A stretch of 64,000 nt of DNA, from the NCBI GenBank assembly GCA_903813345.2, contig CAIIXF020000011.1, forward strand, positions 14,121,754-14,185,753, given 5' to 3'. The stretch comes from Owenia fusiformis. Lineage: Eukaryota > Annelida > Polychaeta > Sabellida > Oweniidae. Position 1 is the stretch's first letter; each line of letters starts with the position of its first letter. The notes beneath the pieces are model-generated. The model was not told the origin of the DNA, did no database searches, and worked only from the letters and a program-made list of their open reading frames with translations. A program made the position numbers and the translations under genes. This document shows, piece by piece, positions 11,301-64,000 of the stretch.

Positions 11301-14300
11301 CTGGTCAGCCAATTTCAAGATTTAAAAGAATAGTAAGAGGCGATGGAAGCCATGCTTCTACCCTATCAACGTCAAAACTAAAAAATGCCATGCCTCGCTA
11401 CCTAGAAATTCCATTAAACCGACTCAGGTCCGGACTTCTCTTGCAAGCTCACCTCCATGCACACAACTTTGAACGGGTTGCTAATCCTAAATGTTTATGT
11501 GACAATATAAACCAGACAACTTTACATTTCCTGTTGAAATGCCCTCTGCTGACAGAACAGAGAACAACACTACTTGCAGGACTGGAGACGATAGGGATCC
11601 GTACCCACTATGATGGACTTAATATGCATGATCAATCCCAGTTCTTACTTTTTGGAGATAATAAATTTCCAGTAGATGTCAATGAGAAACTAATGAACAT
11701 AGTAGCATATTATATCCACCAGGGTCTAGATCTTTTGGACATGTAATCGATTACAACATGTTACAACTGAAATCCCTCTGGCCAAGGGAAAAAACCTTAC
11801 ACATCTTTGTGATATACGAGTGTAGTGTGATGATATTTTATTGACTTTTTCTTTCATCTATTTTAACAATAACATGACATAAAAATAACTTATTATGTAA
11901 AAATTTAATAACATTCCTTTGGATTTCACTCAAAATTGCCGACAATGTCACTAGACTTTGGCAATTGTTTAAGTTTGTACAGCTGTATTTTATGGAATAT
12001 AATAAAGATGATTAATAAAAAAAAAAAAAAAAAATGTGATGCTAGTTCTACTGGATTAGGCGCAGTGCCAATGCAAGAATCTCAACCAATTGCATATGCT
12101 AGTCGAGCTATGACACCTACTGAGCAACGTTATGCTATGATTGAAAAGGAACTATTAGCTGTGTGCTGGTCTGTTGAGAAATACCATCACATGACATTTG
12201 GACGAAAGGTTATTGTGTACTCTGACCACAAACCTCTTGAAATTCTCATGAAAAAACCTCTAGATCGTGTTCCTAAACGACTACAGAACATGATGATACG
12301 TCTCTCTAAGTATGATGTCGAAATAATCTACCAGCCTGGCAAGCTGCAGTATTTAGCTGACACTCTCTCTAGAGCATACTTAACTGACACTGAAAATGAT
12401 GACACTAAAGATCAGTATCCAGTGAATATGGTATCTTACCTTGCAATCACTGATCGTCGACTCAATGAAATCAAAACTCATACTGACAAAGACGAAACTT
12501 TGCAAATTCTTAAAGCTACTATACTTGATGGGTGGCCAGAATTTAAAAAGGACCTGAATTCTCAAATTCACCCTTATTTCAACTTTAGGGACGAACTTGT
12601 AGTCCAAGATGGTCTGATTTTTAGGGGAAACCGAGTTGTTATACCTTTGACTCAAAGACAGATCATAAAAGAAAAACTACACAATTCACACCTTGGTGTT
12701 GAAGGAACTCTTAGACGTGCTAGAGAACTCATCTACTACCCTAACATGAACGCTGACGTGAAACAATTCATTCAGCAATGCGATGTATGTCGGGAATATG
12801 ATGTTGCACAACCCAAAGAAAAATTAATGAGCCATGAAATTCCTACTAGACCCTGGCAAAATGTTGCATCTGACATTTTCACATTTGACTCGACTGATTA
12901 CCTTGTGACAGTTGATTACTTTAGTGATTTCTTTGAAATTGATAGACTACCTGACATGAAAGCTACAACTGTAGTTAGAAAGCTGAAAACTCATTTCAGT
13001 AGATATGGATGCCCTGACAAGCTTACTTCAGACAATGGTGGACCATATGACTCTGAACAATTCAGAAAATTTGCTAAAGAATGGGATTTTGACCATACTA
13101 CATCTAGCCCCTATAATTCAAAAGCAAATGGTAAATCTGAATCAGCAGTGAAAATTGCTAAACAACTGCTAAGAAAATGCAAAAAATCAAAACTTCAAAT
13201 GCATTGTTGACAACTCAAAGCATGAAAGAACAAAGAAAGAAAATCATGTTGAAAAGAGTAGATCAAGAAGGCTACTACAATAAAAATGCAAAAAACTTGA
13301 ATCCACTTGATGAAGGTGATTCTGTAAGAATGCAACCATTCAAATTGGGTGAACGTTCTTGGAAAAAAGCAACTGTTCAAAAACGACTTGATGAACGTTC
13401 ATATGATGTAGAATGTGACGGTACTGTTTATAGACGTAATAGACAACATTTACGAAAACAACCTGACATTCCACTTAATCAACCTCAACCTTTAACTCCT
13501 TCAAAACCCCTCCCTACTCCCAATTCTCAGTCTCAAGTGCCTGAAGTTAATCTGGACATACAAAGTGTTCCTACTGGAAATATAGTCAAACCAGTTATTC
13601 AACCTAGACCACAGCGTACTAGGAATGCACCTGCATATTTAAAGGACTATGTTACTAAATAATGTTTATCTTAACATGAACTTTTGCAATCAAAATGAAA
13701 TGATTCAAATTCAAATAACTCAGGTGTGTTAAATTGTAATTATCTGAAAATGTGAGGTATTAAACACATGTCATATGTGACAACTAAAGATAACTTTTAA
13801 CAAAAACATTGCATGATACTGTGATGAGCTATTACATAAGTTATAGTTTTTGTAATCAAAAGTTAAAAACAGCTTAGCCTTAAGGAAAATAGTTATCAGA
13901 TTAGGATTATTTTAAGTACAATTTAAATGTTCTGCTCACTCACTAGGAAAACAAACAGATCTAATCTTTTATTTCCCATGCAATCATACATATTGATGTC
14001 ATGAATCACATTACATTATTTGTAATACATGTACTTAAGCTTATCTTCTGAACATCTTGATTCAAAAACTTCGGAAAGGAAAGGATGTTTCAATATATGC
14101 TAACACCCCTACTTTATATATTGAACTAATCCAATGTACTATATGATATGTATCTTTACCTGTTTGAATCACTTATGACTTACTTCTTATTATCCCATCG
14201 AACGAAGTTCCGAGGGATATAGGGAACGCCTCCGTCCGTCCGTCCGTCCGTCCGTCCGTACGTACGTCCGTCCGTCCGTACGTCCGTCCATCCGTCTGTC

Positions 14301-17300
14301 CGTCCGTCCGGGCAATAACTCAAATAGCGTTGGCCCGATTTTGTTCATATTTTGTACACATATACCCTATGGGGGTAGAAGTTCTGCTCGAAAGCCGATT
14401 TTCAAAATGGCCGCTCATTTCAAAATGGCGGCCATTTGAGTGCCGAATTTGCAGTAATTTAGGTGCAATATGTAAAACTGTTATAGCAATATGTTTTAGA
14501 TGTAAAAAATTATACAGGACATTAATAAAGCTAGAAATGTAGATATTTAAGAAGCACATGGCAGCCATCTTGAAAAATGGCGGTCTTTACTTGTTATTTT
14601 ACGATTTTTGCTGTAACTCGAAAAGTAGTGGAGCGATTTTGTTCATATTTGGTATGTGAATACTATAAACATTGCACACTGTCTAAAGACACTTTTGGTA
14701 GAAAATGGCCATTTTAAAAAATGGCCGCCATTTTGAAAAATGGCCGCCATTTTAACCTATTTTACTATAACTCAAAAAGTAGTGAAGCGATTTTGTTCAT
14801 ATTTGGTATGTGAATACTATAAGGATGGCACACTGTCTTATGACACTTTTGGAAGAAGGCGGCCATTTTGAAAAAAATTTTGAAAAATGGCCGCCATTTT
14901 TATGTATTTTATAATAATTCGAAAAGTAGTGAAGCGATTTTGGCACAGTGTCTAATGACACTTTTGGTAGAAGGCGGCCATTTTTCAAAATGGCCGCCAT
15001 TTTAACGTATTTTACTATAACTCGAAAAGTAGTGGAGCGATTTTGTTCATATTTGGTATGTGAATACTAAAAGCATGACACACTATCCTATGACACTTTT
15101 AGTAGAAGGTGGCCATTTTGAAAAAAATTTTGAAAAATGGCCGCCATTTTAATGTATTTTATAATAATTCGAAAAGTAGTGAAGCGATTTTGTTCATATT
15201 TGGTATGTGAATACTGTAAGCATGGCACACTGTCTAATGACTCTTTTGGTAGAAGGCGGCCATTTTTCAAAATGGCTGCCATTTTAACATATTTTACAAT
15301 AACTCGAAAAGTAGTGGAGCGATTTTGTTCATATTTGGTATGTGAATACTATAAGTATGCCAAATGGTCTAATGACACTTTTGGTAGAAGGTGGCCATTT
15401 TGAAAAATGCCTGCCATTTTTGCTTTATACTTTGTTTGTAAAAACGCCATCCATGGCTGTTCGATGGGATTCGCTACGCTTTGGCGTTGCCGTTGTTCTG
15501 GTTGCTCTTAAGTCCATCTTCTTAAGATGCTTGAATAAAGTTTACTCTATTAAACTTACTAACTATAGCGTTATGTATCAATTACCAGTCGACAACGAAC
15601 AATATTGAAACACTTATGACATCACAGGTTTAAAAACATCATCAGCATGACAACGGATACATTGTTAATATGAGTATCCATGCTCATTCTACAAAATAAG
15701 TTGTGACGTCATAACAATCGGACTTTGTTGCCACGCGTAACCATGTGTTTTCTACAACATTGTTGTGACATCATAACAATTGAAAGATGAAGTTCCATTA
15801 ATTTGAAGCTATTTTCACTAATTTTTTATCATAAAACGGTGAAAATATGGCATAATTTAGAGTCATATGAGAAAAACTTTCTTGTACTCGTACCTGTGCA
15901 ATATCGTCCATTCTTGACTCGCTTTAATAATGTTTCTTTATCTCATCTGCGACTCGATAAAGAAGAATTATCAATTTGAAAGCTCATCAAGAATGGACGA
16001 TCTTGCACAGGTACTCATATAAGAACCTCTATGTCACAAATGGCAGACATAACCGTCGCTTCAACTGTTTAATCACTTGATCCTCATTTCTTGGGATTTT
16101 ATCGTCGCTAATTCTGTGCATGTATTACTGTAAGCTATTGCGATGATGTTTCATATGAAATCGCAATTTCGATCAAATTGGGTTGTGAATCGCCACAATA
16201 TAGCAACTTGGATATTGTCAATGCCAACGTACGGCATCTAAATCTGAATAATTTAGAAAGACAACGGCTTATGGTAATTACAGTGTCCGTTGTCCCGTAT
16301 CTCATTTTGATCAGTTAAATTAAAGACTTTATTTCGATGGTAGAACATTATTAACTGTACAATGAGTATTAAGACACTTTGATTGATTGTTGTAGAAAAG
16401 GAATTTAATCTAGGTGCTCTTTAAACATACACTGTACAGTTCATGAAAATCTAATTGAAGCGACGGTTATGTCCACCATTTGTGACAACGGTACCTGACT
16501 TTACCGTTGTGAATATCTGATAGTTTAGAACGACAATTACCTCCTGTTTTGAAGGGCTCTCATGTTGGGTACAGATTTTGTTACATCCAGGTTCTGTTCC
16601 ATTGAAATATACAGGGTCCAATTTTAAACGCAATATTTCAGCTGTATTTGATATTCTTGTGGACATATATTTGCACAATCAATAAGAATATATGTTCTAT
16701 TGACAAACTTCAAAGCTTTTGCACAAATATTTTCTGAAACTGACAATACTCATGAAAATTAATGTGATGTCACTGAATTCATTCCGGGAAGCCGAGACAC
16801 AATGACTTGATATGAAACAAGAAGCAATTTCTTGTTTATATAATTGTAGGTTGAATGGTTCAATGTTCATGGATGTCTTGGACTCAATGGATTGTGATAA
16901 TGGTTTCTGAATGACAAGGGAGAGTGGTATTAGACATGGTTTCCTTACATAATATATCATAGGTTGGGATATTTAAGGATTGTTTTCCTTATGACTACTG
17001 ATTGTGCTCTGTTTTGCAACACATTTCTGTTTTTTCCATTTGGCACTTGTGCTAGAATATGTTTTGAATATATCTATATGTACGCAATTGTGTTTTTTCA
17101 GACTAGCCAGTTTAACAAGAAAAAGGAGTTTGTGCTTGAACAAATCCAACAGCTCTCCACATTCAGACCCAACTCACCTGTATTGTCTTCTAGGTTGCCT
17201 AGCAACATACCTAGATCTCCTAGGTTTCCTAGCAACCTGCCAAGATCTCCAAGGTTACCCAGCAACCTAGCATCATCACCTAGGCTATTGAATAACCCAT

Positions 17301-20300
17301 CAAAATCCCCACATCCCTCTCCCAAGATGACCATTTCTGGCAACATTGGGAAATCTCCATTATCCTCCCCTTTACACAAGGGAATTAAGAAACTACAAGT
17401 AGGAGGAGCTAAAATTGAAAGTGGGAGTGGCAAGTTGCCAGTGGGTGTGAAAAGTGTTAATCAAGATGTAGCCCCCTCCCCCAAGGTGGTGCAACAAAGA
17501 CTGAAAGAGGAACTAGAAGGGTTTGCGGTTCAAGTTGCTGCACTGGACAGAGCCAAGCAGATGTCAGACAGAAGAGCTGAGAAACTTGCAAATGTTGTAA
17601 GAAGATTGAAAGGTCAGTTGAATATGGCATTTTTATTTGGTTGGATATAAATTGCGCATACTTGCATCTTGTTTAATCAAGCTTTGGACCTATCCACAAA
17701 GAATGTAGTAATTTAGTGTGGAATTGATAATGGGACATTTGAATATAACCTAGAATTCATTCCATGATTCAAAATATATTCAAGCTTATCAAAGTTTTCA
17801 TTATTTTTCAGTTATACATATACAGTATCATATCTTCTTGCCTTTAAATATGTGTAAAATCTTTATAAAAAAGGTGTACAACCTGCATATATTTCATCTC
17901 ACTATTCTTTATTTAATTCTAGACCGCAATGAGACCCAAAGATTAGAACATGAGGCTAGCATACGTAAGTTAGAGGAGACCTTTGATTTTGACAACAGTA
18001 TAGAGCAGAGACTGGGTTCATTAGCAACACAGTTAGAGGCAGAAAGAAAATATGTGACAGACTTGGAGAATAAGGTAATGAAATATGTGACAGACTTGGA
18101 GAATGAGGTAATGAAATATGTGACAGACTTAGAAATATGTGACAGACTTGGAGAATAAGGTAATGAAATATGTGACAGACTTGGAGAATAAGGTAATGAA
18201 ATATGTGACAGACTTGGAGAATAAGGTAATGAAATATGTGACAGAGTTGGAGAATAAGGTAATGAAATATGTGACAGAGTTGGAGAATAAGGTAATGAAA
18301 TATATGACACATGATAGTAAGGTAATCTATCCCATGTCTAAGTGATTCTTAGCAATTTGACTGTTCAGTTGTGATAATGTACATTTCAGGGCCATAGGGA
18401 GAGGGAAATTTTGAGTTAATTAGACACTGTTTGGAATTTGAACGATATTTTATTAGATTCAAATTTTATGATGTTGGATGACATTTCGTCATGTTAATGC
18501 CTTATTCCTCATATAATGCACTAGATAACCGGTACATATTATCTGATGTCAAATCACCATAAAAATAACCTGACAATGTTAGATTTAAATAAAATATTTT
18601 TTTCCAGGTTTTCCAGATTTTTTCCCAAAAATTTTTCTTCTGAAAAACCTAACAAGATTCCACAAAGTAAAAAGTATCGAAAACGTTCAGTACTTTATAA
18701 AAGTACAACCATCTGGAATTGTCAGGCATCTCCATTCTCACATTTAGGATTTCTCAAATAAAACTGTGAAAATGTCTTTTTTTGTTTTTTTAAATCTATT
18801 TCTATCATTCATTAGCATACAAATCAACATTTCAAAATGCAATATTTCAGATAACTGTTAAAATGTAGATAAGTGGTCTCCCTAGGTTTTTTTCTCAGGT
18901 AGGTGCAAAATTCTCATTTTCACAATTTATACCAAAATTGATTTTTCTAATTTTCAAGTGGGTGCAAATGTATTTTCAGATGGGTGCAAGCGCCCGCTTG
19001 CTATAATGCTGGGGAGATCATGGAGATTATGTCAAACTTTTATTAGGCTAAACTGGTACTATTCTGATATATTAGACATTGAATTGTAGATTTGCTTGGA
19101 TTCTTTTCGCTTCATACTGGCATCTCTTTCAATTTTGATGAGACAAATGTTTAAAAACAATGCACAAAAGCATAAAATTGCTAGTAAAACAAATGTCCAC
19201 TTGAAGCAAAATTGTCCAAAGCACTCATTTGATCCTGGCGGGCTGTTCAGTTTATAACTAAATCCAAACAATTGTTGAAATCCGAACATTCCAATGGTTT
19301 GTGCAAAGACAAGAACTCCATAGTTTTGACCAAAATATTTGATTCCAAATAATTCAATAGAGAGACATTGTATTTGCACATAAAGTGCCCCATATGAAAG
19401 TCCAGTCAAAATTGTACTGATGAACAACCCAAAGAATCCCTGGTTGGAGAAAATTATAACAATTAGCCCAAAGCACATTAATAATGAGCAAGGGAGTGGA
19501 TATATCGACTTAGGAATATTATCCCATTTTAGGAGGATATAATTTGTCATCAGTGTTACAACAATTTTCCCTAATGAACCGAATATTGGAAGGCAAATAG
19601 TAAAAACTGCAATGTCATACTCTCGATGAACTGATTTCAAGACTATGGCGATGTTGTTCATAAACGTAACACCAATTCCACCTAGAATCATAATTATCAG
19701 AAAGAGGTAATAAAATTGCAATGTTTGTATCATTTGCCAGAAATTCAGGTCAAGTGAACAAGCAGTACTGTCTTTGCAATTTGCATTTGCAATCAATTCA
19801 TCCTTTTCATTGAAGTGTTTGTCATCTATGCTGTCATCAGTTTCTTCCATGACTCTGTCTTGTTCAAAACTTTTGAACAGCTCGTTTAAATCACTTTCAT
19901 CCGTTTTGAATGTTTCCTTTGCTGGAATTTCCTTTAGAAACACAATGCATAACAAATTAATGATCATCGAGAGCACAGCTAGAAATAGCATATAATCTCC
20001 ATACTTTTGATTCTCAGCATCTTTTATGTGGCCTTGTACAAACAATCCTTGATAGATGGCGCTAAACAGAGCTGGGGCAATCCCAAATACGCAACCAAGA
20101 ATCACCTGTACCCAAACTCTTTGTGTCCCTTCAAAGTTCTTACTGTTTACTCCTATACTTGTTAAGTACAGAAATGACGTTCCAAATAATGTAGCAAAAT
20201 AAATGAGAACCTGCAGCCAAGCATTAGCTGCAAAAAATGTGTAAAACATTGTCGTCATCCATAATACGATAAATCCAACTCCAGTGAAAATTAGAGAAAG

Positions 20301-23300
20301 TATACAAGAAGGTCTTGGTCCAAATCTGTCAAATACAAATCCCGCTGGAATCATAAAGCACTGGCCTATGTCCGCACTTGATGCTATATACTCCACTTCT
20401 ATCTGTGTGTAGTTGAATGTATTTTTCAAGGAAAGTGCATATGTGTTAAAACTATATAACATTCCTGACATGATCACACCAAGTATTCCTGCCATAAGAG
20501 AAATATATTTTTGCATATTGACTTTTTGTATTTTGAAAATATCAGGCATTTTTCAATAGTTCTTTTGTTCTCACTTGTTATTATTTTATATTACTGTTTT
20601 CAAATTTTGAACATGAATGTTATTTTGTATTTGTTGTTCACCATATTGTATTGTGCATCCTGAAACTAAACCTCAGCTTTTAACTTCTTCTTGATCCTTT
20701 TAAGTGTCTGTGTGACACTATTGGCACTATAATGCTGCCTTTGGACACTGGTTACTTTAAGCTATTCACTTTTGTACTGAACTATGAACTTTTCAGCAGG
20801 CAGCAGATGTATTTAAAATCACCCAGTGTGGCAGTGTGTTGTAAATTAATTTGTATGGTGCTTTTGAGCATAGGCTTATTTAATCTATCTAATTTCCTTA
20901 ATGGGCTGCAGGGAGGGGGGTACTCGAGCACGGTCTTTAAGTAATAGTAAGCTGTATATAGAAGCAGCTTACTATTACTTAACCCTTAGCCTATGCTTTT
21001 GAGAAACATCAACATTTCCCATGGTTCAGTATACTGGACACCTTTGTTTGATATACACTGTGAATTATGAGTATTAAATGATTGAATTATGAATATTAAA
21101 TTATTAAAATCAAAATCATTTATACTTGCATCTAGTCTTTTGCTTAGCAGAGACTTTATATGAAGGTATCTCTTCTGTAACTCATCTTGAATTTAATCCA
21201 ATATTAATTAACATTTTTCAATTCATAAATGATACAGTCAATCCGGCTCTTTCCTAATCCAAAGCACAAATACTGTTGATGTTTCAAAAATCATGTTTTG
21301 GATACATTTTCAGTTTAATCTACTTAATTGTTGTAATAAGACTTCTTTGATATTGAAGAAGCAGTTATTTTGGCACTAATTCAAATCATAAACAATAGGC
21401 AGGTGGAAATACATACTTTGATATGAGCATGAACTTGAAGTCATATTCAGTGCTAAAAATAAATAAACCTTATTCTCTTCAAATCAGTAGAAATAATATG
21501 CCTATGAGCATGAACTTGAAGTCATATTCAGTGCCAAAAATGAATAAACTTTACTCTCTTTAATTAATTAGAATAGAAATAATATGCCTATGAGCATGAA
21601 CTTGAAGTCATATTCAGTGCCAAAAATGAATAAACTTTACTCTCTTTAATTAATTAGAATAGAAATAATATGCCTATGAGCATGAACTTGAAGTCATATT
21701 CTGTGCCAAAAATGAATAAACTTTACTCTCTTTAATTAATTAGAATAGAAATAATATGCCTATGAGCATGAACTTGAAGTCATATTCTGTGCCAAAAATG
21801 AATAAACTTTACTCTCTTTAATTAATTAGAATAGAAATAATATGCCTATGAGCATGAACTTGAAGTCATATTCTGTGCCAAAAATGAATAAACTTTACTC
21901 TCTTTAATTAATTAGAATAGAAATAATATGCCTATGAGCACGAACTTGAAATCATGTCTAATGTCAAAAATGAATAAGCCTTATTCTCTTTAATTGATTA
22001 TTAGATTAGACTATACCTGGAAAGATACTGGCCATATGTAAGTTCCATAAATAAATACATACAATCAACTGTAACTCCCCCCCTCGAAATGAAATGCCAA
22101 TAAGCATGAACAACTGTATTTAATAACAAAATCATGCATTCAATTCATTTGATACATGTTTTTTCATATTATAAATCATCTTATTCTTAAACTAAATACA
22201 GTAATGTCCATAATATGGTTGAAATAGTTGCAACCACTTGGTAAAATGCAACTGAAACAATGGTTTGTAATGGTTGCAAATGATTGCATAATTTCAATGA
22301 TATGCAACCAAAGTTTTCAACCAAATTTTAATGGTTGATATGTTATGGTTGGAAACCATTTCAAATGGTTGCAGTAATGGTTACGCAATGATTTTTAAGT
22401 TATGTAATGGCTTTTAACGGTTGAAATTCAGAAAAAATGGTTGTTTTTTTCTAAGGGATATATCAGATCAAATTTGAATGATGGCCCATTTGTTAAACAT
22501 CGGCTGAATGACATGAGACAACTATTTATTTTGAAGCTTTCAAAGTTCATGATCCAAGCAATGGCATAATAATTGCCAAAGCAACTTGGTGACAGGTACA
22601 TGTACATTAACAGAGACATCAATTTTACTCAATTTTGATGAAAAGATGTACAGGGTGGGCCAATAAAAATGTCCATATTTTTTTTTGTAATATCTTCGCT
22701 GGTATGTTAAAGATATTCATAAATTTAATATCATTTGAAAGATAATTCAGTTTCCAACAAAGTGATGTTTGATTCATAAAATATGAATGGCTATTGGTGA
22801 CTCTATGGTCATTTCCGTATCATGGGGTAGTAATAGTCAAAAACAACATTTCGCTATATGTTTTGAGCTTAATACATACTATTGCATTGCTTAATCAACA
22901 CTTTTAGGCCTTTACATATGAAGAAAAGCTATTGGAGTCAAGTAAATCATTTTATACACTGTAGCTCTAAAATAATCATGGAACCTATTTTATGCATTGT
23001 AGTCTGTTATAAAGTAAGATTGAAATGGATATTTGCTTCAAACATGTTTTGCAAAGAAACTAAGTTGAAATTTTGCCATAACCCATGATATGGAATACAT
23101 TTCCATAATTTCCTCTTCTGTCGTCTATTATTGCATTGTCTGCCATTCAGAATGTCAGTTAAGTTAAGTTATATAAGTACAACATCATTCTTGATCATTT
23201 CATGATAATTTTAGCTTATAATAGGCATTATCCCAAAAATGTCTTGAAATGAGTAAATATTAACTATTTGATGCAGATTTCTCCGCGTTATTTAGGCTAT

Positions 23301-26300
23301 ATTATCACCAATACCTATCAAATTCGTAAAAGAACTCAAAAATATTGTATTTGTAAATTAATTTGCTTTCATTTGAGACTTATATCCTTAAACTTCTGTC
23401 TGTCTATATACATGTATCTTTATAATATCGTATATATTTTGTTTTATTTCAAAACATGGTTTTTGAAGGACTTTTTGTACGAAAAATTGTGAATTAATGT
23501 AAAACTAGGTCACATGTTTTTTTAATAAGGATAATTCACACCAATACATAGCATTCATTCTCATATGTTTTCTGCTGAAAAAATGAGGAAAATTGGTTCA
23601 TAAAGAGGTGAGAAATGTAGTCATCAATGCATGAAAATGGTTCAGAGAAAATACATTTTAAAATTCTAGTTCTCATAGAAACCAATTGTACATTGATATT
23701 TAAGACATAATATTTTTTTTTTTATCATCTTTCATATTTATTGTAAGCACAAGTCATTTAGATACAATTACAAGGGGCAAAGCGCTGTAAGCATTAGATG
23801 TCCCCTTATATAAATAAACAATAAAGTACAATATTCATCATAACCTGGATGTCACCTGTAAATGGTAGAATGCCTTGCAATGAAACAAAAGATAGGAGGG
23901 CTGCTGATATTCTTCCCTTTAAACTGGTTAGACAATCAACATTGGTTTATTTTGGAAGTTTTTGCAACTTGAGTGATGTCACGATGATTGATGTCACGAT
24001 GATTGATGTCACTTAGGTTGTTAAATATTTTTGATATTCTAAAACATTGAAGTGGCACATTTGATATGACATTTTATTATTGAAAAAGTATGTCCTCTGT
24101 TCAATCTTTGCATTGGTGTTAAAAAGATATGATTTTGCACTGTATAGTGGAATATTTGATGATTAAAAAATTTCAACTTTACGTATTTGAAAAATGGATT
24201 TGAATATTTGAGAAATGAAAAGCTGACAATTGTTTTTTCAAAAATCTCTGTCATGACAAGTAGTAAATGAATGATAAAAACATATTCTCTACAAATTGCT
24301 CAATATGCCAGCATTACGTTTTTACCAATTTTGAGATATTTGAAGTCAAAAAGGGTAAAAATTATGTGACTACCAAAAAGTATTGTTATGGTCTCTGTTT
24401 TTTAGTGACGGCAATCGGCGCTTGGTGATCGGCGGGTGGCGGTTGGCATCTGTAACAAATTATTAAAACTTCCAATTACTTAACAAATAAGTATTTAGAC
24501 TGACTTCAGTTTTTTTCAAAATCATCTACAAGTTTTCAGAAGTTCAAATTTTACTTTATATTTAAGATTTGACCTTCAGTGACCGTTTCAAGGTCAATTC
24601 AATTCAATTCAATTCAATTTATTTCATAATTCTTATATAATATACACTATAAAAACAAGCCGCTAGACACCCTAGTGGGTATATGTTGCGGTTTAACAGA
24701 AATCATTAAAATGACATCTAGACTACATATAAAAGAAAACACTTATATTATGTTACATGTAGGTATATAAAAATGGTATTAACAATTAATCTAAGGATGT
24801 ACAATGTAAAAATGTTACAAAAATCAGGTATCAGTATAAAATCAACAGTATAGTATGATATTGGTATTATACATTATCGATAGATGAGTAGTTTTTTATA
24901 TGAAGATTTGAAAATATTTAGAGTGGAGCATTTTTTAATATCATGTGGTAGAGCATTCCAAAGATTAGGACCTAGATAGCGAAGGGAAAGTTTAGAGCAT
25001 TTAGGGATATGAAAATAATGCAATTGTCTTGTGTAATGATGATGAATATTAATGTTGATATCAAACAAGTCTTGAAATAGATTTTTTGGAAGACTTGCTT
25101 CAAATTTACCAATTTTTTTTTCAAAATCATCTACAAGTTCTCAGAAGTTCAAATCTGACTAAGATTGAACTAATAATATCGTGAGCAGCTAGGTGGCGAC
25201 ATTTTGTCATTTTTAATGCCTTGTTTTTCAACTTGCTTCGATTTGACCCAATTCTTTTTTTAAATCATCTACAAGTTCTCAGTTCAAATGTGACATTAGT
25301 TATGAGATGTGACCTTTACTTGACCTACAGTGAAATCACAGCTCATTCTATTGTGTTGCTATCTGTAAGTGGGGTTTATTACAAGTCATATAGTCAACAT
25401 AGTGTAGATATGCAAATGAGCTTTAAAATGATGCAAACCAAATTAAAATCAGAACAAAACTGTTATGTACATAAAGGTGAAAATCATATCCCCATTAGTA
25501 ACAAGCACCTGCTACAATAGCGTTTCCTAAAAAAAAACGTACAACTCTGAATCGTTATTTAGCTCTAGTTCCATATACCCAAGTATAAGCTTTCCAACGG
25601 TATATAATTTATCCAAGGTATTTTGGAAATTAAACTGCGCTTTTATGCAACTTTTTTGGCAATTGGCTACTGCCCTACAGGTATAAAAACAAATCATTAC
25701 TAAATTTTTCAGGACTCCAAATTCTCAACTAAACTGGATGGAGCACCAAAACGCTTTAATGTTGGAGAGATCCTGGATCAATATACAGCGTTTATGTTTA
25801 TTTCTAGTTGCAGTCAATTTCCAAAGATCTGAGGGTTTCTCAAGATAAATACAACTCAATCAGCAAAGCCTACACTGATCTTCAATATCAGTACAGAAAG
25901 ATGGAAGTTGAGCATTCAGATCTGAAGAGGTAAGCAGCTGTATACAGTAAAACCTGTATAAGTGAGACACCTTTGGTACCTAAAATATGGTTCCACTTTT
26001 GATGTGTTCTATAATTAAGAAGGTTCATTTTATTTAAAGAGGACTCTAAAAAGTGTTCAACTTATTTAGGAGTTCTACTTAGAGAGGTCCATATAAAGAG
26101 AATTTGGAAAAGTGTTCCACTTATTGAGGTGTTCTTTGTTCTACTTATAGAATTGTTTTCTCACAATTGGTTTATATAGATGTGTATTTGGAAAAAACAC
26201 TAAAAATGGACCTCCAGGCCTGCATATAAACAGTATCAATTTTAAAGCATGTACACTGTCTTATGACAATTTTGCTAGACAGCCTGCCATTTTGAATGAA

Positions 26301-29300: not shown

Positions 29301-32300
29301 TTCCAAACTAGACTTCCCCAATTGTTTGGATTTTTGACTAAGAGAAAAGGAAACACAAGTTTTTGATACAATGAGGTACATATACATTTTCAGAAAAAGT
29401 CATTTTTATTATTGTTTTGAGAAAGTCCAGTGATATAGCACAATGCCATTTAACTGGTACATAAAAACCTGTGTAAGTGGAACATCTGTAAGTGATGAAA
29501 GTGTTCCACTTACACAGAACACCTGTAAGTGATGAAAGTGTTCCACTTACACAGAACACCTGTAAGTGATGAAAGTGTTCCACTTACACAGAACACCTGT
29601 AAGTGATGAAAGTGTTCCACTTACACAGAACACCTGTAAGTGATGAAAGTGTTCCACTTACACAGAACACCTGTAAGTGATGAAAGTGTTCCACTTACAC
29701 AGAACACCTGTAAGTGATGAAAGTGTTCCACTTACACAGAACACTTGTAAGTGATGAAAGTGTTCCACTTACACAGAACACCTGTAAGTGATGAAAGTGT
29801 TCCACTTACACAGGTCTTAAAATTGAGAAACAAATTCAAAATGTATTCCAGGAACAACCTTTAACAATGTGATCATATACATGATACTAAAGTATGTTTA
29901 TAATTAATATGTAATGATTTAATTATAATGTAGGCATATGTTTTCATTTGTTCAGGTTATGGTTCAACATACTGAGAACCTGAAGAGATTGTACGAGAGA
30001 GAACACCATGAACTGGAGGAGACAAGGAGGATCCTACAAGAGAACAACCTCTATACTCCTTCAACAAGCCCAGACATAGGTGAATATATGGGGACTTAGT
30101 CATGCATCTTCTCCCTCCTACTAATAATCCCACTAGATTACACCGAATGAAGTTTGAGTAGGGATATAGAAAAGCTGTTTACCTTTCAAGCGGATAACTC
30201 AAATACCAGTGGACAGATTTAATTCAAACTTTAGAGGCTGATGCCAAATGGGCATAGGACCTCTGCTTGAGAATCAATTTCCAATATGGCTGTTTAAATC
30301 AAAATGGCTATCATATTTGACATGACAAAAATTTCACGATTTTGTCAATCTGAAATGTTACATGGGCATTAAATTCCACTGTTTGAAGAAATATCCAAAT
30401 GAATTCAATGTTAAATCAAACATTCACTGTGCCCTTAATTTCACACCTTTTAGCAAAAATAGTAAAAATTAGGGCACATTGAAAATTCGGGCTTTTACAG
30501 TGATTAGTTTATGTGAGCATAATCAGATTACATAAACGTGTGTGATTGTTTTACAGCAGGGGAATGCACTATTGGTAAGAGGTCTATGTCGGTGACAGAG
30601 GGAGCCACTAGTCTCAAGGTACATTGTAAAAATAAGCGCTTCACTATTGTGACAGAATTCAGTCAAACATTATCTCATTTGACAGCCTTTTTGTGAATGG
30701 TTATTGAGTTCAGGTTTCAATATCTACATATTTACTGCATTTATAATTTTCTATTAGTGATATAGATTGGCCTAGGTATAAAGGAAAGGTTCTTGATTGA
30801 ATCTTTTCTGATTCACAAGAAAATAAAAAGATGGCTGTTTTTCTATAAATCTTAGTATTTTCATATGACAAAATATCTGTTTGTTTGTCAATCCATCTGG
30901 TTACAGTTGTGGCATATTTCATAATGATTATACTTTTAGTTTTTTGTTTTTTGATTAGTTACCCATGCGAAAACACTTTCTCTGCAGTTTCTTCACATAT
31001 TAGCTCTGGAAAATCAAAACATACCTTGACATTACTGTCGCTACCTCTTCCACCACATGGTGGGTGATAAGACAGTACTATAAATCAGTATTGTCAATGT
31101 TGCAGTATTGTAGTCTTAAACATGTTCTTCAGGTTGGATTATCAAATCACAAAAATATTTTTTCTTCTTTTGGTAAACTAATATGACGTATTTTTTTTTA
31201 TTTAGTTGTTTTGTAGCGCTTCAGTTCATTTTTTACAGTTGAAAAAGGATCCAGACAGGATCCGAAACGTCCTGTTTAGTAAAATAAAGGTTGTGAAAAG
31301 AAAAAAAAAAATGTTTGTGGAGAATTGTATTCATATCACTGTTGTTCTTTTGATTTTGTTGTTAAACTACAGTGAAACCTGTATATCCAAACACCTTTCT
31401 CAATGTGAACTTATTATAAGGTTCCAATTTTGTTATTTCTCATTGATGTACATATTGGGAAGCCTTGAAATATGAATACCTGCTTATTTTAACTTTATAT
31501 TTGACGAATAAGTCCAGAATTGAAAAAGCTAGGGACCAGGTGATTTAGAATAGGCTCAGTAGATGGAGAGGATGGTCTTTATGAAACACCCTGTACATGT
31601 AGTATATTTTGTGTTGTTCATTGTTTAGGAAACTAGAAGGCGTGCTAGCGTAGCGGTGGGTGCTTTAGGAAGACAGGCCAGTGTCTCAAATGTAAGAGCT
31701 CATGTTTCACCCGCTTGCAACATAAATATATTTTCTAATGTTTTATATTTTACATATACAGCAATGATTCTGATGATATCATTTACCTATTAAATCCAAA
31801 ACTTTCATTTTGTAGCCAATAACAAAAGTGATTTCATTTATAAATAGTATGTATGTATAATGATTACAACAAAAATAACTTAAATTCTTCAGTGAACTTT
31901 TGAGTCATTGCAACTATTATATATGAATAACAATGATATGTCCAGCATTGCACCTCATTAGAAATTCAAAAATGACACGCTACCCTGTTCAAAATCTTTT
32001 TGCACCCTATCAAAAAGATTAATTATTTACATGTTATCCAAAAAGTATAAGATAGGTGTGAAATCCCTGTTGAGAAAAAACGCGAAAAAACGTCAGAAGA
32101 TCACTGAATAAATAGAAAATTTATAAGAAATTAAAAACCCAAAAACTTTTGACTTTTTAGGATCCAAAAAGTCAGAGCATAGTAGCATCTACCTCAGCAG
32201 GTAACAAGAACTCCATCTTTAGTGTTGTGAGACGGGCTTCTATGGCAGATAAAGGAGACAGTAGTCCAACAGGACAGTCCGAACTGTCCCCCATATTATC

Positions 32301-34795: not shown

Positions 34796-35330
34796 CCATG
34801 GTAATACTCCATGCGTGGATTAAATAATTATGGCGCTGTTTATTTTGATAACTGGTGGAGTTGACAGTACAATAATATACATGTATGAGGCTTGAGGAAA
34901 TACTCAAGCCCATATTTCAGTCAGACATTATGGTGCCCTGACTACTTAAACAAGGGAATATTCCATGCATGGATTAGCTGATTATATGTTGCTGTTTACT
35001 TTGATAATTGGTGGAGCTGCCAGTAAAACAATATATGAGGTTTGAGGAAATACTCAAGCCCATATTTCAGTCAGACATTATGGTGCCCTACTACTTAAAC
35101 ATGGTAATATTCCATGCATGGATTAGCTGATTATATGTTGCTTTTTACTTTGATAACTAGTGAAGCTGCCAGTACAATAATATATGAGGTTTGAGGAAAT
35201 ACTCAAGCCCATATTTCAGTCAGACATTATGGTGGCCCGACTACTTAAACAAGGGAATATTCCATGCATGGATTAGCTGATCATGTTTTGGTTTACTTTG
35301 ATAACTAGTGGACCTGCCCAATACTCCATA
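34691..35330 (+). repeat. ~150-bp tandem duplication of the terminal exon end and 3' flank
   Basis: Units begin at 34691 (coding), 34839, 34995, 35144 and 35292, with steps of 148, 156, 149 and 148 bp. The last unit is cut short. Shared landmarks are TTTACTTTGAT, ACTGGTGGA.CTGC.AGTA, GAGGAAAT.CT, CATATTTCAGTCAGACATTA and TCCATGCATGGATTA. Only the first unit keeps the reading frame; the others carry early stops. Confidence 0.9.
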
Positions 35331-51168: not shown

Positions 51169-53509
51169 CTATGTAGTTACAGACGTTACAAACAGATTGT
51201 TGATCTTTTTAGAAATTGTCAGATTGTTACGACCTGGAAGTACTTAAAAAAAGAAAAAAGTCAGCAATAATTGGACTTTTTTCTTAAAAGCGATAAGTTA
51301 ATATACCCAACTGTCTGAACTGGCCATTTTTCAGATATGAGTATATTTACATACGGCTTTTAAGTCAATGCATTAACATGCAAAATGTCACCACAGGCCA
51401 TTTGTTACCACCATCCACGAAGAAGTTTTTGTCAACAGAATAGTTTGAGAATATATGTCACCACTTCTTGTGGCGCCATAAAAAATCAAATCATTGCTGA
51501 GTAAGTACAGTTTACTAATAACTATGAATTGAACTATGAATTGTTACTTTAAAAGCTAGCAATATTAATAATATTCAAATGATCAAGACCAAATTGATAG
51601 AGCTAGAACTATTTTGTTGGTAAGTTTCCAAAGTCTCAGAATGAAAATTACCAAACACATGCAAACAGAACCACTGTTCCTTGTGTTGCAGCCAAGAACC
51701 TGCTTTGCTGGAAATACAAAAAAGATGCTGTAGTACTTGTTAATATTACGATTTAAATATATTGCAAAAATTCAAATCAATTAGGAGGGATGGAGTAAGG
51801 TACATGTACACATAGTAATACATCTTAACTAGGTAAAAAATACTGCTTCCAGCGCTGTATAGCTGATTCTTCTGGTGGGTGTATGGTCCTGTGAAAAGAG
51901 AATTCATTTATTAGTAACTTCCGCATGCAACAGTAGTAGTTGTAGTTCAGGCAAGGAGCAGTCTTTAACCCTCTTCAAAACACCTGCAATGAGAAAATGA
52001 TTTTACTGTCTACCTTAACTCCAAAGCATGCAAGGGATTATCATTTACAAAAAAGTTGCCAAGTTGCCTTTATCAATCAGATTCTAGGTCGTAAATACCT
52101 AGATGGTTGATTGCTTATTGGACCAAAACATGGTCGCATTAACACTGACCTCAAAACAAGAAAAAAACAGTCAAATTGAAAAATTGATGATGATTTGATG
52201 AAACTTAAGATCATCTACCAACTCGCACCAAAAAAGAGAATCGGTATCCGAAAACTGAGACTAACATACCAAGGTATGTTAAATCTCAGGTGAAAATGAG
52301 TTTATAAAAAAAAATATGAAGACAATATTTTCCAAATATAGCACACATTACTTCCATTTTGATAAAACCAGGTGGATTCCATTATTCTTTCATGTCAGAA
52401 CATAGAATCTGTTAGGAAGCTTTCAAGCCAACACACCTTAACAAAAGATCAAACATTGGGTGACCATCCCCCTGCTCATGCTGTATGCTGTCCAGAGAGA
52501 TTAAGAAGAATAACAAGAATGACATCCTCGGCCATGCATAATTAGGATACATCACATTAAAAAGATGAAATACAAGACCATACCACTGTCAATTCCCAAT
52601 AGTACCTTTACTGTAACACTGATAAGCAATGTCTACCTACCTAAAGAGTACAAGGTAACATGTATCAACCCCAAGGCCATTCCGTACAGATCCAAGTGAA
52701 CTCTTGCTGCGTCCTCACGAGATCTCTGGATCACACTATATCCGTCATAGCTAACTACTCACATTACAATACGAGCAAGTAAAAATGAGTGGACCTTCAC
52801 CAGAGCTCAACGATACCCCTCCAGAACGACCCAATGCATGCCGGCACCACAGCATGCATTGAAGAAAGAAAATTCAGAATACCTCCTCCTGGTGGGTGCA
52901 AGACCCACCATTTTGACCTGCAAGTAAAGAATGCTTTCACCAGCCATCAGAATATAGGCAAAACAAAGAACCAAGCTCAACAATAAGAATCCAACTTGGA
53001 AACTGTTGGTCGGGACTTACAAGGAATTGATACCTGAAACCCATGCATCTAGAGATTGATAGACACTGATCATCAGAATCACAGTGGAGGTACTACGAGG
53101 AACATCAAACGGTATGACCAAGTAAACCAGAGCTCTCAATGCAATGGATCAGAATGACCCATGCTCAACGATGCCATTCTTAGATATTCCTCAAAATCAA
53201 TCGGGACAACATAAAACATGAACAGGGGAAGGCCTCCCAACACTTGATCAAGTGTTAAGACATGTTTAGCCATCCAGCCTCCTAGCAGATTCCAGGTTCC
53301 TTCACTCCAGAATAATGGGTCGGCCAACAAAATCCACCGGTTCAATCAAAATGGAAGGTGTCCCACTAACGAGAAAACCTGCCGCTCCTAAACCATAGAT
53401 GGAAAACGTGTCTAGCTGGTAGATGACCCCATATGGAATAACTAAGATAACTTAACCAAATAACTAAGATAACTCAACAAGATTACTTAACTTAGGTGAC
53501 AGGAACTTT

Positions 53510-54480
53510 GTGATGAGGCTCATCTTTAAGGGAGTGGAGTCCAGGAGGCGACTCATTTTCCAGTGCATGGCTTATCTTTCAGGGGATTGCTCATTTTCCA
53601 GGGGATTGTTCATTTTCCAGCGGGTGGCTCATATCTCAGCGGGTGGATCATCTTCCAGCACGTTGCTCAATTGCCAGGAGGTTGCTCAATTGCCAGCAGG
53701 TGGATCATCTTCCAGTGGAATGCTCATCTTGCAGTGGGTTGTTCATCTTCCAGTTGGTTGCTCTTCTTCCAGTTGGTTGCTCTTCTTCCAGTTGGTTGTT
53801 CATCTTCCAGTTGGTTGCTCTTCTTCCAGTTGGTTGTTCATCTTCCAGTTGGTTGTTCATCTTCCAGTTGGTTGTTCATCTTCCAGTTGGTTGCTCTTCT
53901 TCCAGTTGGTTGTTCATCTTCCAGTTGGTTGTTCATCTTCCAGTTGGTTGTTCATCTTCCAGTTGGTTGTTCATCTTCCAGTTGGTTGTTCATCTTCCAG
54001 TTGGTTGTTCATCTTCCAGTTGGTTGTTCATCTTCCAGTTGGTTACTCTTCTTCCAGTTGGTTGCTCTTCTTCCAGTAGGTTGCTCTTCCTCCAGTTGGT
54101 TGGTCGTCTTCCAGTTGGTTGTTCATCTTCCAGTTGGTTGTTCATCTTCCAGTTGGTTGCTCTTCTTCCAGTTGGTTGTTCATCTTCTAGTTGGTTGTTC
54201 ATCTTCCAGTTGGTTGCTCTTCTTCCAGTTGGTTGCTGTTCTTTCAGTTGGTTGCTCTTCTTTTAGTTGGTTGCTCTTCTTCCAGTTGGTTGCTCTTCTT
54301 CCAGTTGGTTACTCTTTTTCCAGTTGGTTGCTCTTCTTCCAGTTGGTTGCTCTTCTTCCAGTTGGTTGCTCATCTTCCAGTGGGTTGCTCATCTTCCAGC
54401 AGGTGAATTATCTTCCAGCGGTTGAATTATCTTTCAGTGGGTAGATCATCTTCTAGCAGTTGGATCATCTTCAAGGTTGC
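53510..54480 (+). repeat. 19-bp minisatellite, macrosatellite copy 1
   Basis: The core unit is CTTCCAGTTGGTTGCTCTT, with the variant ...GTTGTTCAT. The edges are degenerate (GGGTGGATCATCTTCCAGC type). This copy is 304 bp (16 units) longer than copies 2 and 3. All three forward frames stay open for 500-880 bp, because 19 is not a multiple of 3; each frame reads the same 19-residue peptide (SSSSWLLFFQLVALLPVGC type). Confidence 0.93.
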
Positions 54481-54639
54481 CATCTTCCACCAGATAGATC
54501 ATCTTCAACTGGGAACTTGGCTTTCCAATGGGGGACTTGCCTTGCAGTGTGTGGCTTCCAGTGTGTGGCTCAGGTACTAGTGGGCTGACCACCTCCAAGC
54601 TAAAGGTAAATCTGGAAGAAATATTGTACATTAGGAAAT

Positions 54640-54750
54640 AAAAATACTGTACTTACTTGAACCCCACATCCTAGAGATAATCTTCCATCCAGGGCAATGC
54701 TTCTTCAGTAACACACAGACATCACCAGAATAACAATATCCTATGTAGAA
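54640..54750 (-). other. Exon-like module B, minus strand
   Basis: The acceptor is TGTTTCTACATAG and the donor GTAAGTACAG (a strong consensus). The start is homologous to module D. Related modules with the same GTAAGTAC donor are at about 49.72 and 55.40-55.48 kb, with near-identical copies at about 59.27, 60.02 and 63.88 kb. Frames differ between modules, so protein coding is doubtful. Confidence 0.3.
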
Positions 54751-54959
54751 ACAGGCGTTGCAGGCAGATGGTGCATATTGAAGTTACTCTCATAAACTCA
54801 TAGGAAAGGACAGAAACTTATCTTCAGGGGAAGAGGAGTGCATCTGAAAGTACATACAAAATAGGAAAAGTTCAGCAATGGTTTCAATTTTCAATTTTTC
54901 AACAAGGCTTCCGTGATCAAGACACTTCCATAACAGGGGGGGGGGGGGGGGAGGGAATG

Positions 54960-55320
54960 CAAATCTCCAGTGAGATCATCTTTCAGCAGTTTGATCATCT
55001 TCCACCAGGAGGATCATCTTCCAACGGATGGATCATCTTCCAGCGGATGGATCATCTTCCAGCGAATGGATCATCTTTCAGAGAGCAGCTTGTCTTCAGA
55101 TGAGTGGCTTGACTTTTTGCAAATGGCTCGTAATCTGGTAGATGGCTCATATTCCAGGAGCTGACTAATATTCTAGTGGTTGCCTCATCTCATCATGGCT
55201 CGTCTTCAAATGATTCTGCATCTTTATGAGGGTGACTCCTCTTCCAGGGGATGGATGATTTTCCAGACAGCATTTTCCGTTCCAGTTGGTTTCATGGCTT
55301 CCAGTTTGTGGCTCAGATTC
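54960..55320 (+). repeat. Short 20-bp array, copy 1, after a poly-G run
   Basis: A G run near 54938 is followed by GGATGGATCATCTTCCAGCG-type repeats to about 55190, then degenerate forms. It is related to the 19-bp array. An equivalent lies at about 59550-59900. Confidence 0.75.
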
Positions 55321-55903
55321 TATTGGGCTGATCAACCCCATGCTAAAGGCAAATCTGAAATACTGTAAATTTGAAAATAAAACTTCAGTACTTACTTGAA
55401 CAGGATCCTGGAGACTTCTCTCATCTTGAACAAAGCTACCGCAGTCGCACAAGGACATTACCAGAATAACAACATCATATGTAGATACAGGTGCAACAGA
55501 CACCAGGTGCTTATTGTAGTTACGATTTGAAACATTCCGGAAAGGGTAGAAGTTTTAACCTCCAGGGTAAGAGGAATGCATCTGTAAGTACATATAAAAT
55601 AGGAAGTCAGCAATGATTTAAATTTTGATTTGTTGTTACAATGCCAAAATGATTGAGCCACTTACTGAACAAGCGGAGGAGGGAATGCCTGAACAGAAGT
55701 ATCTCTATAGAAGTGAATTGTGGTCTATATATTTTTAGAACATGAATTAAAATTATGTTTTTGAACATTGAATTACCCCCCACCCCCAAGCCCAATATAA
55801 TGAATAGTTGTATTCATTTTTTATTCATTCTTTTTGATATGTAAAGTCAACATACATAATATCTCCAAATTGGCTCTTCACTATAGCTAGTAGCTACCCT
55901 TAC

Positions 55904-55973
55904 CTGTGTGGGTGTAACATTCCTGTCGTTTCTTTAGTTGCACACAGCTGTTAGTACAGGCAGTAGCAATATG
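55904..55973 (-). other. Exon-like module D, minus strand (70 nt)
   Basis: The acceptor is GTATCTACAAAG and the donor GTAAGG. It is exactly the length of module A, open in the same phase (ending VQLKKRQECYTHT). An identical copy lies about 4.6 kb on, near 60535-60605. Confidence 0.3.
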
Positions 55974-58395
55974 CTTTGTAGATACATACACTGCAAACAA
56001 CTGACCCAAATCATTGATCCACTTCGAAAGACCACAACCAGGGTAGATATTGTCATGACCTGAAAGTACTTAAAAAAGAAAAAAAAGTCAGCAATGATTT
56101 GACTTTTTTCCTTAAAAGAAACAAGTAAATATACCCATCTCACTGAAATGGCCATTTTTCAGATGTGAGTACATTTACATATAACTTTTAAGAGAATGCA
56201 TGAACATGCAAAATGTCACCACTGGCCATTTGTTAAAGATGCACTTGGTTACAGTAAGCCGAACACTAATTGATTACTGCAATCAAGAAGTTTCATCCAC
56301 CCATCAGTTTGAGAATATAACATTATGTCAACACTTCTGTAGTGACATAAAAATCAAATCATTGCCCAGTAAGTACAGTTTACTAAAAACTATGAACAAA
56401 AATCATATCATTACTGAATAAATTTTCAAATTGTTGCTTTAAAAGCTAGCATTATAGTATTCAAATGATCAAGACCAAATTGATAGAGCTAGAACTATTT
56501 TGTTGGTAAGTTTTCAAAGTCTCAGAATGAAAATTACCAAACACATGCAAACAGAACCACTGTTCCTTGTGTTGCAGCCAAGAACCTGCTTTGCTGGAAA
56601 TACAAAAAAGATGCTGTAGTACTTGTTAATATTACGATTTAAATATATTGCAAAAATTCAAATCAATTAGGAGGGATGGAGTAAGGTACATGTACACATA
56701 GTAATACATCTTAACTAGGTAAAAAATACTGCTTCCAGCGCTGTATAGCTGATTCTTCTGGTGGGTGTATGGTCCTGTGAAAAGAGAATTCATTTATTAG
56801 TAACTTCCGCATGCAACAGTAGTAGTTGTAGCTCAGGCAAGGAGCAGTCTTTAACCCTCTTCAAAACACCTGCAATGAGAAAATGATTTTACTGTCTACC
56901 TTAACTCCAAAGCATGCAAGGGATTATCATTTACAAAAAAGTTGCCAAGTTGCCTTTATCAATCAGATTCTAGGTCGTAAATACCTAGATGGTTGATTGC
57001 TTATTGGACCAAAACATGGTCGCATTAACACTGACCTCAAAACAAGAAAAAAACAGTCAAATTGAAAAATTGATGATGATTTGATGAAACTTAAGATCAT
57101 CTACCAACTCGCACCAAAAAAGAGAATCGGTATCCGAAAACTGAGACTAACATACCAAGGTATGTTAAATCTCAGGTGAAAATGAGTTTATAAAAAAAAA
57201 TATGAAGACAATATTTTCCAAATATAGCACACATTACTTCCATTTTGATAAAACCAGGTGGATTCCATTATTCTTTCATGTCAGAACATAGAATCTGTTA
57301 GGAAGCTTTCAAGCCAACACACCTTAACAAAAGATCAAACATTGGGTGACCATCCCCCTGCTCATGCTGCATGCTGTCCAGAGAGATTAAGAAGAATAAC
57401 AAGAATGACATCCTCGGCCATGCATAATTAGGATACATCACATTAAAAAGATGAAATACAAGACCATACCACTGTCAATTCCCAATAGTATCTTTACTGT
57501 AACACTGATAAGCAATGTCTACCTACCTAAAGAGTACAAGGTAACATGTATCAACCCCAAGGCCATTCCGTACAGATCCAAGTGAACTCTTGCTGCGTCC
57601 TCACGAGATCTCTGGATCACACTATATCCGTCATAGCTAACTACTCACATTACAATACGAGCAAGTAAAAATGAGTGGACCTTCACCAGAGCTCAACGAT
57701 ACCCCTCCAGAACGACCCAATGCATGCCGGCACCACAGCATGCATTGAAGAAAGAAAATTCAGAATACCTCCTCCTGGTGGGTGCAAGACCCACCATTTT
57801 GACCTGCAAGTAAAGAATGCTTTCACCAGCCATCAGAATATAGGCAAAACAAAGAACCAAGCTCAACAATAAGAATCCAACTTGGAAACTGTTGGTCGGG
57901 ACTTACAAGGAATTGATACCTGAAACCCATGCATCTAGAGATTGATAGACACTGATCATCAGAATCACAGTGGAGGTACTACGAGGAACATCAAACGGTA
58001 TGACCAAGTAAACCAGAGCTCTCAATGCAATGGATCAGAATGACCCATGCTCAACGATGCCATTCTTAGATATTCCTCAAAATCAATCGGGACAACATAA
58101 AACATGAACAGGGGAAGGCCTCCCAACACTTGATCAAGTGTTAAGACATGTTTAGCCATCCAGCCTCCTAGCAGATTCCAGGTTCCTTCACTCCGGAATA
58201 ATGGGTCGGCCAACAAAATCCACCGGTTCAATCAAAATGGAAGGTGTCCCACTAACGAGAAAACCTGCCGCTCCTAAACCATAGATGGAAAACATGTCTA
58301 GCTGGTAGATGACCCCATATGGAATAACTAAGATAACTTAACCAAATAACTAAGATAACTCAACAAGATTACTTAACTTAGGTGACAGGAACTTT

Positions 58396-59062
58396 GTGAT
58401 GAGGCTCATCTTTAAGGGAGTGGAGTCCAGGAGGCGACTCATTTTCCAGTGCATGGCTTATCTTTCAGGGGATTGCTCATTTTCCAGGGGATTGTTCATT
58501 TTCCAGTGGGTGGCTCATCTCTCAGAGGGTGGATTATCTTCCAGCAGGTTGCTCAATTGCCAGCAGGTGGATCATCTTCCAGTGGGTTGTTCATCTTCCA
58601 GTGGGTTGTTCATCTTCCAGTTGGTTGTTCATCTTCCAGTTGGTTGCTCTTCTTCCAGTTGGTTGCTCTTCTTCCAGTTGGTTGCTCTTCTTCCAGTTGG
58701 TTGCTCTTCTTCCAGTTGGTTGTTCATCTTCCAGTTGGTTGTTCATCTTCCAGTTGGTTGCTCTTCTTCCAGTTGGTTGCTTTTCTTCCAGTTGGTTGCT
58801 CTTCTTTCAGTTGGTTGCTCTTCTTTTAGTTGGTTGCTCTTCTTCCAGTTGGTTGCTCTTCTTCCAGTTGGTTAATCTTCTTCCAGTTGGTTACTCTTCT
58901 TCCAGTTGGTTGCTCTTCTTCCAGTTGGTTGCTCATCTTCCAGTGGGTTGCTCATCTTCCAGCGGGTGAACTATCTTCCAGCGGGTGAACTATCTTCCAG
59001 CGGTTGAATTATCTTTCAGTGGGTGGATCATCTTCTAGCAGTTGGATCATCTTCAAGGTTGC
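58396..59062 (+). repeat. 19-bp minisatellite, macrosatellite copy 2
   Basis: It has the same unit and flanks as copy 1, but a shorter core. The distance from the GTGGACCTTCACCAGAGC landmark region to CAAGGTTGCCATC is identical to copy 3 (1379 bp) and 304 bp less than in copy 1. Confidence 0.92.
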
Positions 59063-62000: not shown

Positions 62001-63029
62001 CTGCATGCTGTCCAGAGAGATTAAGAAGAATAACAAGAATGACATCCTCGGCCATGCATAATTAGGATACATCACATTAAAAAGATGAAATACAAGACCA
62101 TACCACTGTCAATTCCCAATAGTACCTTTACTGTAACACTGATAAGCAATGTCTACCTACCTAAAGAGTACAAGGTAACATGTATCAACCCCAAGGCCAT
62201 TCCGTACAGATCCAAGTGAACTCTTGCTGCGTCCTCACGAGATCTCTGGATCACACTATATCCGTCATAGCTAACTACTCACATTACAATACGAGCAAGT
62301 AAAAATGAGTGGACCTTCACCAGAGCTCAACGATACCCCTCCAGAACGACCCAATGCATGCCGGCACCACAGCATGCATTGAAGAAAGAAAATTCAGAAT
62401 ACCTCCTCCTGGTGGGTGCAAGACCCACCATTTTGACCTGCAAGTAAAGAATGCTTTCACCAGCCATCAGAATATAGGCAAAACAAAGAACCAAGCTCAA
62501 CAATAAGAATCCAACTTGGAAACTGTTGGTCGGGACTTACAAGGAATTGATACCTGAAACCCATGCATCTAGAGATTGATAGACACTGATCATCAGAATC
62601 ACAGTGGAGGTACTACGAGGAACATCAAACGGTATGACCAAGTAAACCAGAGCTCTCAATGCAATGGATCAGAATGACCCATGCTCAACGATGCCATTCT
62701 TAGATATTCCTCAAAATCAATCGGGACAACATAAAACATGAACAGGGGAAGGCCTCCCAACACTTGATCAAGTGTTAAGACATGTTTAGCCATCCAGCCT
62801 CCTAGCAGATTCCAGGTTCCTTCACTCCAGAATAATGGGTCGGCCAACAAAATCCACCGGTTCAATCAAAATGGAAGGTGTCCCACTAACGAGAAAACCT
62901 GCCGCTCCTAAACCATAGATGGAAAACATGTCTAGCTGGTAGATGACCCCATATGGAATAACTAAGATAACTTAACCAAATAACTAAGATAACTCAACAA
63001 GATTACTTAACTTAGGTGACAGGAACTTT

Positions 63030-63696: not shown

Positions 63697-64000
63697 CATC
63701 TTCCACCAGATAGATCATCTTCAACTGGGAACTTGGCTTTCCAATGGGGGACTTGCCTTGCAGTGTGTGGCTTCCAGTGTGTGGCTCAGGTACTAGTGGG
63801 CTGACCACCTCCAAGCTAAAGGTAAATCTGGAAGAAATATTGTACATTAGGAAATAAAAATACTGTACTTACTTGAACCCCACATCCTAGAGATAATCTT
63901 CCATCCAGGGCAATGCTTCTTCAGTAACACACAGACATCACCAGAATAACAATATCCTATGTAGAAACAGGCGTTGCAGGCAGATGGTGCATATTGAAGT

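Follow-up and report, generated by a model that had tools for sequence, protein, structure and literature searches.

This locus raises the question of which donors can still give a productive message once a tandem repeat has copied the donor at the end of a coiled-coil exon. In the 64-kb stretch of Owenia fusiformis DNA analyzed here (the window), the original prediction had described a donor-bearing 33-bp repeat within a coiled-coil IRAG gene. The array, its donors and a Pfam match to MRVI1 all agreed with this description.

The gene and its 33-bp array

Joining exons 6-12, numbered as in the original prediction, at their splice signals gave a single open frame that is 392 residues long; of exon 12, the acceptor and the initial 110 bases were included. 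The exon ends (Table 1) were placed by frame and splice signals alone. The Pfam profile MRVI1 (PF05781) matched residues 300-387 of the join, a span that starts late in exon 10 and reaches exon 12, with 82.2 bits (cut-off 27) and an E value of 4.6e-23, covering profile positions 233-321 of 533. Judged by its sequence, the gene is IRAG/MRVI1-like. A downstream frame, separate from the joined exons, encoded the hydrophobic FLLACILFGIAVLTVLFTLM followed by a stop, a candidate C-terminal membrane anchor. The exon 7/8 junction was located at residue 221, upstream of the MRVI1 match and in a coiled-coil-like stretch. In the cited account of mammalian IRAG1 and IRAG2, the coiled-coil region is described as required for IP3 receptor binding (PMC10298018).

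Table 1. Features of the array and its neighboring exons (positions within the window; a slash marks a splice boundary)
Feature	Positions	Strand	Description
Exon 6	17102-17612	+	Open frame with splice signals; 3' end AAAG/GTCAGT
Exon 7 with donor 1	17923-18074	+	152 bp; in frame with exon 8
Tandem array	18048-18327	+	280 bp; in order, two 33-bp units, a 19-bp partial unit, five 33-bp units (seven in all) and a diverged 30-bp unit
Donor 1	18075-18080	+	AAG/GTAATG; phase 0; most likely the main productive donor
Donor 2	18108-18113	+	GAG/GTAATG; in frame
Partial unit	18114-18132	+	19 bp
In-frame TAA	18156-18158	+	Just before donor 3; precedes donors 3-8
Donor 3	18160-18165	+	GTAATG; after stop
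Donor 4	18193-18198	+	GTAATG; after stop
Donor 5	18226-18231	+	GTAATG; after stop
Donor 6	18259-18264	+	GTAATG; after stop
Donor 7	18292-18297	+	GTAATG; after stop
Diverged unit	18298-18327	+	30 bp
Extra weak donor-like site	18317-18322	+	ATA/GTAAGG
Donor 8	18322-18327	+	AAG/GTAATC; in the diverged last unit
Exon 8	25808-25929	+	Acceptor TCTAG/TTGCAG; a second AG six bases on gives an alternative start at 25814

Each 33-bp unit was composed of 27 exon-type bases followed by GTAATG. Tandem Repeats Finder gave 33-bp rows for 18048-18137 (93% matches) and 18132-18309 (98% matches), and the irregular step was covered by extra rows of 19, 52 and 85 bp. These rows stop at 18309, and the final 30-bp unit was assigned by direct reading. 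Units 1 and 3-5 were identical across 33 bp. Unit 2 carried a single base change (AAG to GAG ahead of the donor), while units 6 and 7 had one change in common (GAC to GAG, reading GAGTTGG). Compared with two whole units, the 52-bp step had 14 bases fewer and one base different.

A GTAAT donor preceded by AG was present in all eight units of 30 or 33 bp and absent from the 19-bp partial unit. The AGGTAATGAAATATG core, with at most two mismatches, was matched eight times in the window, seven of them inside the array; 100 shuffles gave a mean of 0.42 matches and a largest value of 2. Head-to-tail units were found to cover the exon end, as placed by frame and splice signals. On the minus strand all three frames were open over 18129-18326, which is due to the composition of the repeat. 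Scans of viral contigs for the exact 33-bp unit returned no match, and those for the 80-residue exon 11-12 protein returned ten pattern matches and no relative. Nothing useful came from scanning for bacterial-type promoters and terminators.

Donor phase and protein outcome

The offsets from donor 1, modulo 3, were 0 for donors 1 and 2 and 1 for donors 3-8. The original prediction had placed the first two donors in frame and the later ones one base out, and its arithmetic was borne out. Each of its eight GTAAT sites was exactly located, and its list did not include the GTAAGG candidate at 18317.

Splicing from donor 1 joins exon 8 in frame (LENK/LQSISKDL), with no stop through the join. With donor 2 the exon is 33 bp longer and the protein gains VMKYVTDLENE; the length of 11 residues had been foreseen correctly, but the sequence had been given as MKYVTDLENKV. 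From donors 3-8 the extended exon passes the TAA in the exon frame, so that all six share one common stop. Both the frame shift from donor 3 on and this TAA result from the 19-bp partial unit. Since the TAA lies ahead of donors 3-8, only donors 1 and 2 are productive. Nonsense-mediated decay (NMD) is the expected fate of a premature-stop mRNA with several exons downstream.

The expectation that later donors would change frame was therefore right but understated, as all six share the same premature TAA. The suggested length-variable exon holds at most for donors 1 and 2 (0 or +11 residues) and fails for the later donors, which share a premature stop and yield no longer proteins. The idea of a splice-noise hotspot is plausible, given the equal U1 pairing of the eight donors reported below.

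The number of exon-side bases needed to tell a donor apart was 62 for donors 4 and 5, 46 for donors 6 and 7, 29 for donor 3 and 28 for donor 1. Junction counts from reads with short overhangs are ambiguous because up to 62 such bases are needed.

Choice among the donors

Each of the eight donors had a predicted U1 pairing of -6.6 or -6.7 kcal/mol. Five other donors of the gene spanned -5.8 (exon 11) to -9.6 (exon 8), an interval that includes the array values, and by this measure GTAATT at the end of exon 9 equaled the array donors. A position matrix gave 2.26-2.34 bits for all eight. Neither measure separated the eight donors and, U1 pairing being equal, donor sequence picks no winner. Bases -3 to +6 were identical in donors 1 and 3-7, a point against preferring donor 1 by sequence. 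In a 500-base fold, predicted RNA accessibility was 0.71-0.81 for donors 6-8 and 0.40-0.50 for donors 1-5, which under this model would, if anything, speak against donor 1. Where SRSF1 lies just upstream of two competing donors, the intron-proximal one is described as favored (PMC5585400). If a bias of this type acted at the array, the non-productive donors would be favored.

The coiled-coil register was compared among the in-frame joins with a simple home-made heptad score, by which donors 1 and 2 are little apart. With the acceptor at 25808, donor 1 gave a continuous register (offset 0, score 12.2), and donor 2 gave a stutter with one hendecad added (offset 4, score 11.6). With the acceptor at 25814 the register was broken for both donor 1 (offset 5, score 7.6) and donor 2 (offset 2, score 7.0), and 25808 is therefore favored. 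Exon 8 shortened by 1-6 residues scored 6.6-9.4, compared with 12.2. The register modestly favors donor 1 joined to 25808. The fit of the donor-2 insert was matched or exceeded by 106 of 5000 shuffles; such a fit is expected without selection because the insert duplicates part of the coiled coil. Read in the phase of the array, the last unit gives KYMTHDSK and lacks the leucine of KYVTDLENK, as if it were a copy decayed in an intron.

Two other approaches were set aside. Pfam was tried as a judge of the isoforms, and three of the four in-frame ones (donor 2 joined to 25814 not being among them) scored 82.2, 82.4 and 82.8 bits. Since the match begins downstream of the junction, Pfam cannot choose between them. 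Nor was an exon end at the internal GTAAGT (17965) accepted, since, reasoning from the sequence, it would put exon 8 out of the LQSISKDL frame.

We consider it probable that the array is a mostly neutral, possibly polymorphic minisatellite, with donor 1 as the main productive site and the later donors either suppressed or giving NMD-prone products. A stretch of 33 bp across the end of the coiled-coil exon, comprising 27 exonic and the first 6 intronic bases, would have been tandemly duplicated into a minisatellite. As the duplicated segment spans the exon end, every copy would carry a donor of equal strength. Donor 1 would be the main productive site, carrying an unbroken heptad register into exon 8 at 25808, and donor 2 may yield a minor form whose additional hendecad is tolerated. 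The partial unit after copy 2 of this allele shifts the frame, so that donors 3-8 would yield mRNA with the common TAA, whose products might be truncated or degraded via NMD. The array would persist mostly as neutral intron sequence, provided that donor 1 or 2 was used often enough.

Use of several donors to an appreciable extent, whether regulated or noisy, appears unlikely. Donors 1 and 2 would then supply two coiled-coil lengths and donors 3-8 a poison sink lowering IRAG output, with the dose tuned by array length. Such use is consistent with the equal U1 pairing of all eight donors, with the coiled-coil hydrophobicity kept in both in-frame forms (12.2 and 11.6), and with human IFI6, in which donor use is described for two downstream repeat units (PMC4526556). 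However, the fit of the donor-2 insert (106 of 5000 shuffles) is expected without selection. It is quite improbable that the array works as a length-tunable splicing rheostat, in which competition among equal donors would fix coiled-coil length through the in-frame pair and the extent of message destruction through the stop-bearing group. If it did, the IRAG dose in different individuals would be set by how many repeats they have and by where the partial unit stands.

The array might also once have been coding as 11-residue units, with the exon end further to the right and the 19-bp partial unit as a recent frame break in this allele, which we regard as very doubtful. The length of every other unit is divisible by three, the shifted frame is open over 18133-18345 with repeats of the KYVTDLENKVM type, and the 3-4-4 hydrophobic spacing seen in the sequence (V, L, V, V) suits a hendecad coiled coil. 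However, a stop-free 33-bp unit stays open in one frame trivially, the last copy, KYMTHDSK, is poor for a coiled coil, and copy 1 already joins exon 8 in continuous register. An assembly artefact affecting the copy number or the 52-bp step has the slightest chance. Short near-identical tandem units are in general prone to mis-assembly, but this array measures just 280 bp and several copies have variants of their own (copy 2 with GAG, copies 6 and 7 with GAGTTGG, copy 8 diverged). The 52-bp step, with 14 bases fewer and one changed, is not a homopolymer slip.

Known systems and other arrays in the window

The repeat of human IFI6 has a 12-bp unit at the end of exon 2. In this minisatellite (gene also named 6-16 or G1P3), the donors of two units further downstream are described as being in use, which gives three mRNA species (PMC4526556, citing Turri et al. 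1995). There, as here, a tandem repeat supplies multiple splice donors; however, gene and unit differ, and donor use in IFI6 is described from experiment, while the present donors are known from sequence. The 31-bp VNTR of human CBS, c.1444_1467+7(16_21), is described as polymorphic with 16-21 copies (PMC2630376). By its name, this repeat takes 24 exonic and 7 intronic bases across an exon end, comparable to the 27 and 6 bases found here. Since 31 is not divisible by three, successive CBS donors would change phase, whereas the 33-bp unit holds it as far as the partial unit. Variation is also known for the CBS repeat, whereas the present array is known from one sequence.

Intron gain by tandem duplication is the subject of the AGGT model. 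For potato RdRp, intron gain by tandem genomic duplication is described (PMC4974935). Tandem duplication within a gene affected splicing structure in both cases, but at the present locus the donor of an existing intron was copied and no new intron is evident. The architecture is already known in human genes, and this locus adds a case in another animal gene and not a class. Its distinctive trait is the combination of a phase-keeping 33-bp unit with a partial unit that leaves two donors productive and puts six behind a stop. Here eight donors that pair equally with U1 stand 30-52 bp apart in natural competition, and the outcome carries its own readout (two productive, six with a common stop). 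This makes the locus a tidy test, provided by nature, of spliceosome preference for the first or the last among equal sites.

Tandem arrays made up 15.4% of the window and 12.8% of positions 10000-37500, or 6.8% of the latter for periods of 10-100. One of the 13 mapped splice sites was inside a tandem array. As random placement expects about one or two, no special cause is needed.

In three parts of the IRAG/MRVI1-like gene, arrays touched sequence presumed to be coding. A 30-bp in-frame coding repeat of the SPRLPSNLPR type was located in exon 6 (17186-17284). An array of 149/299 bp (34689-35318) started within the presumed last coding exon, which reads LFTLMTGGPASNTDTSVEEMLRPHISVRHYRAPPS and then a stop; its diverged copies downstream had no long open frame. 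We take the APPS end of this exon to recall the proline-rich tail of KASH proteins. IRAG2/Jaw1 is described with a KASH domain (PMC10298018).

A second multiplied donor-like motif was detected in the same gene. Nine 37-bp units (29480-29813), each with T/GTAAGTGATG, began 232 bp beyond exon 11, which itself ends in a weak donor (GAG/GTATAT, U1 pairing -5.8). The U1 pairing of the 37-bp units was -6.2 in the three of nine that were computed.

Within intron 7, an uninterrupted frame of 497 residues ran on the minus strand (19059-20552). It encodes a Major Facilitator transporter (Pfam MFS_1, 2.1e-24) and may be an intronless gene or a retrocopy. Pfam detected RNase H-like and integrase domains in a frame at 11912-13210, which belongs to a retrotransposon. 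Over 51539-64000 a large block was present three times in tandem, with spacings of about 4.9 and 4.6 kb and 92-97% identity, and every copy of the block carried a 19-bp array, TTGCTCATCTTCCAGTTGG, rich in acceptor-like TTCCAG.
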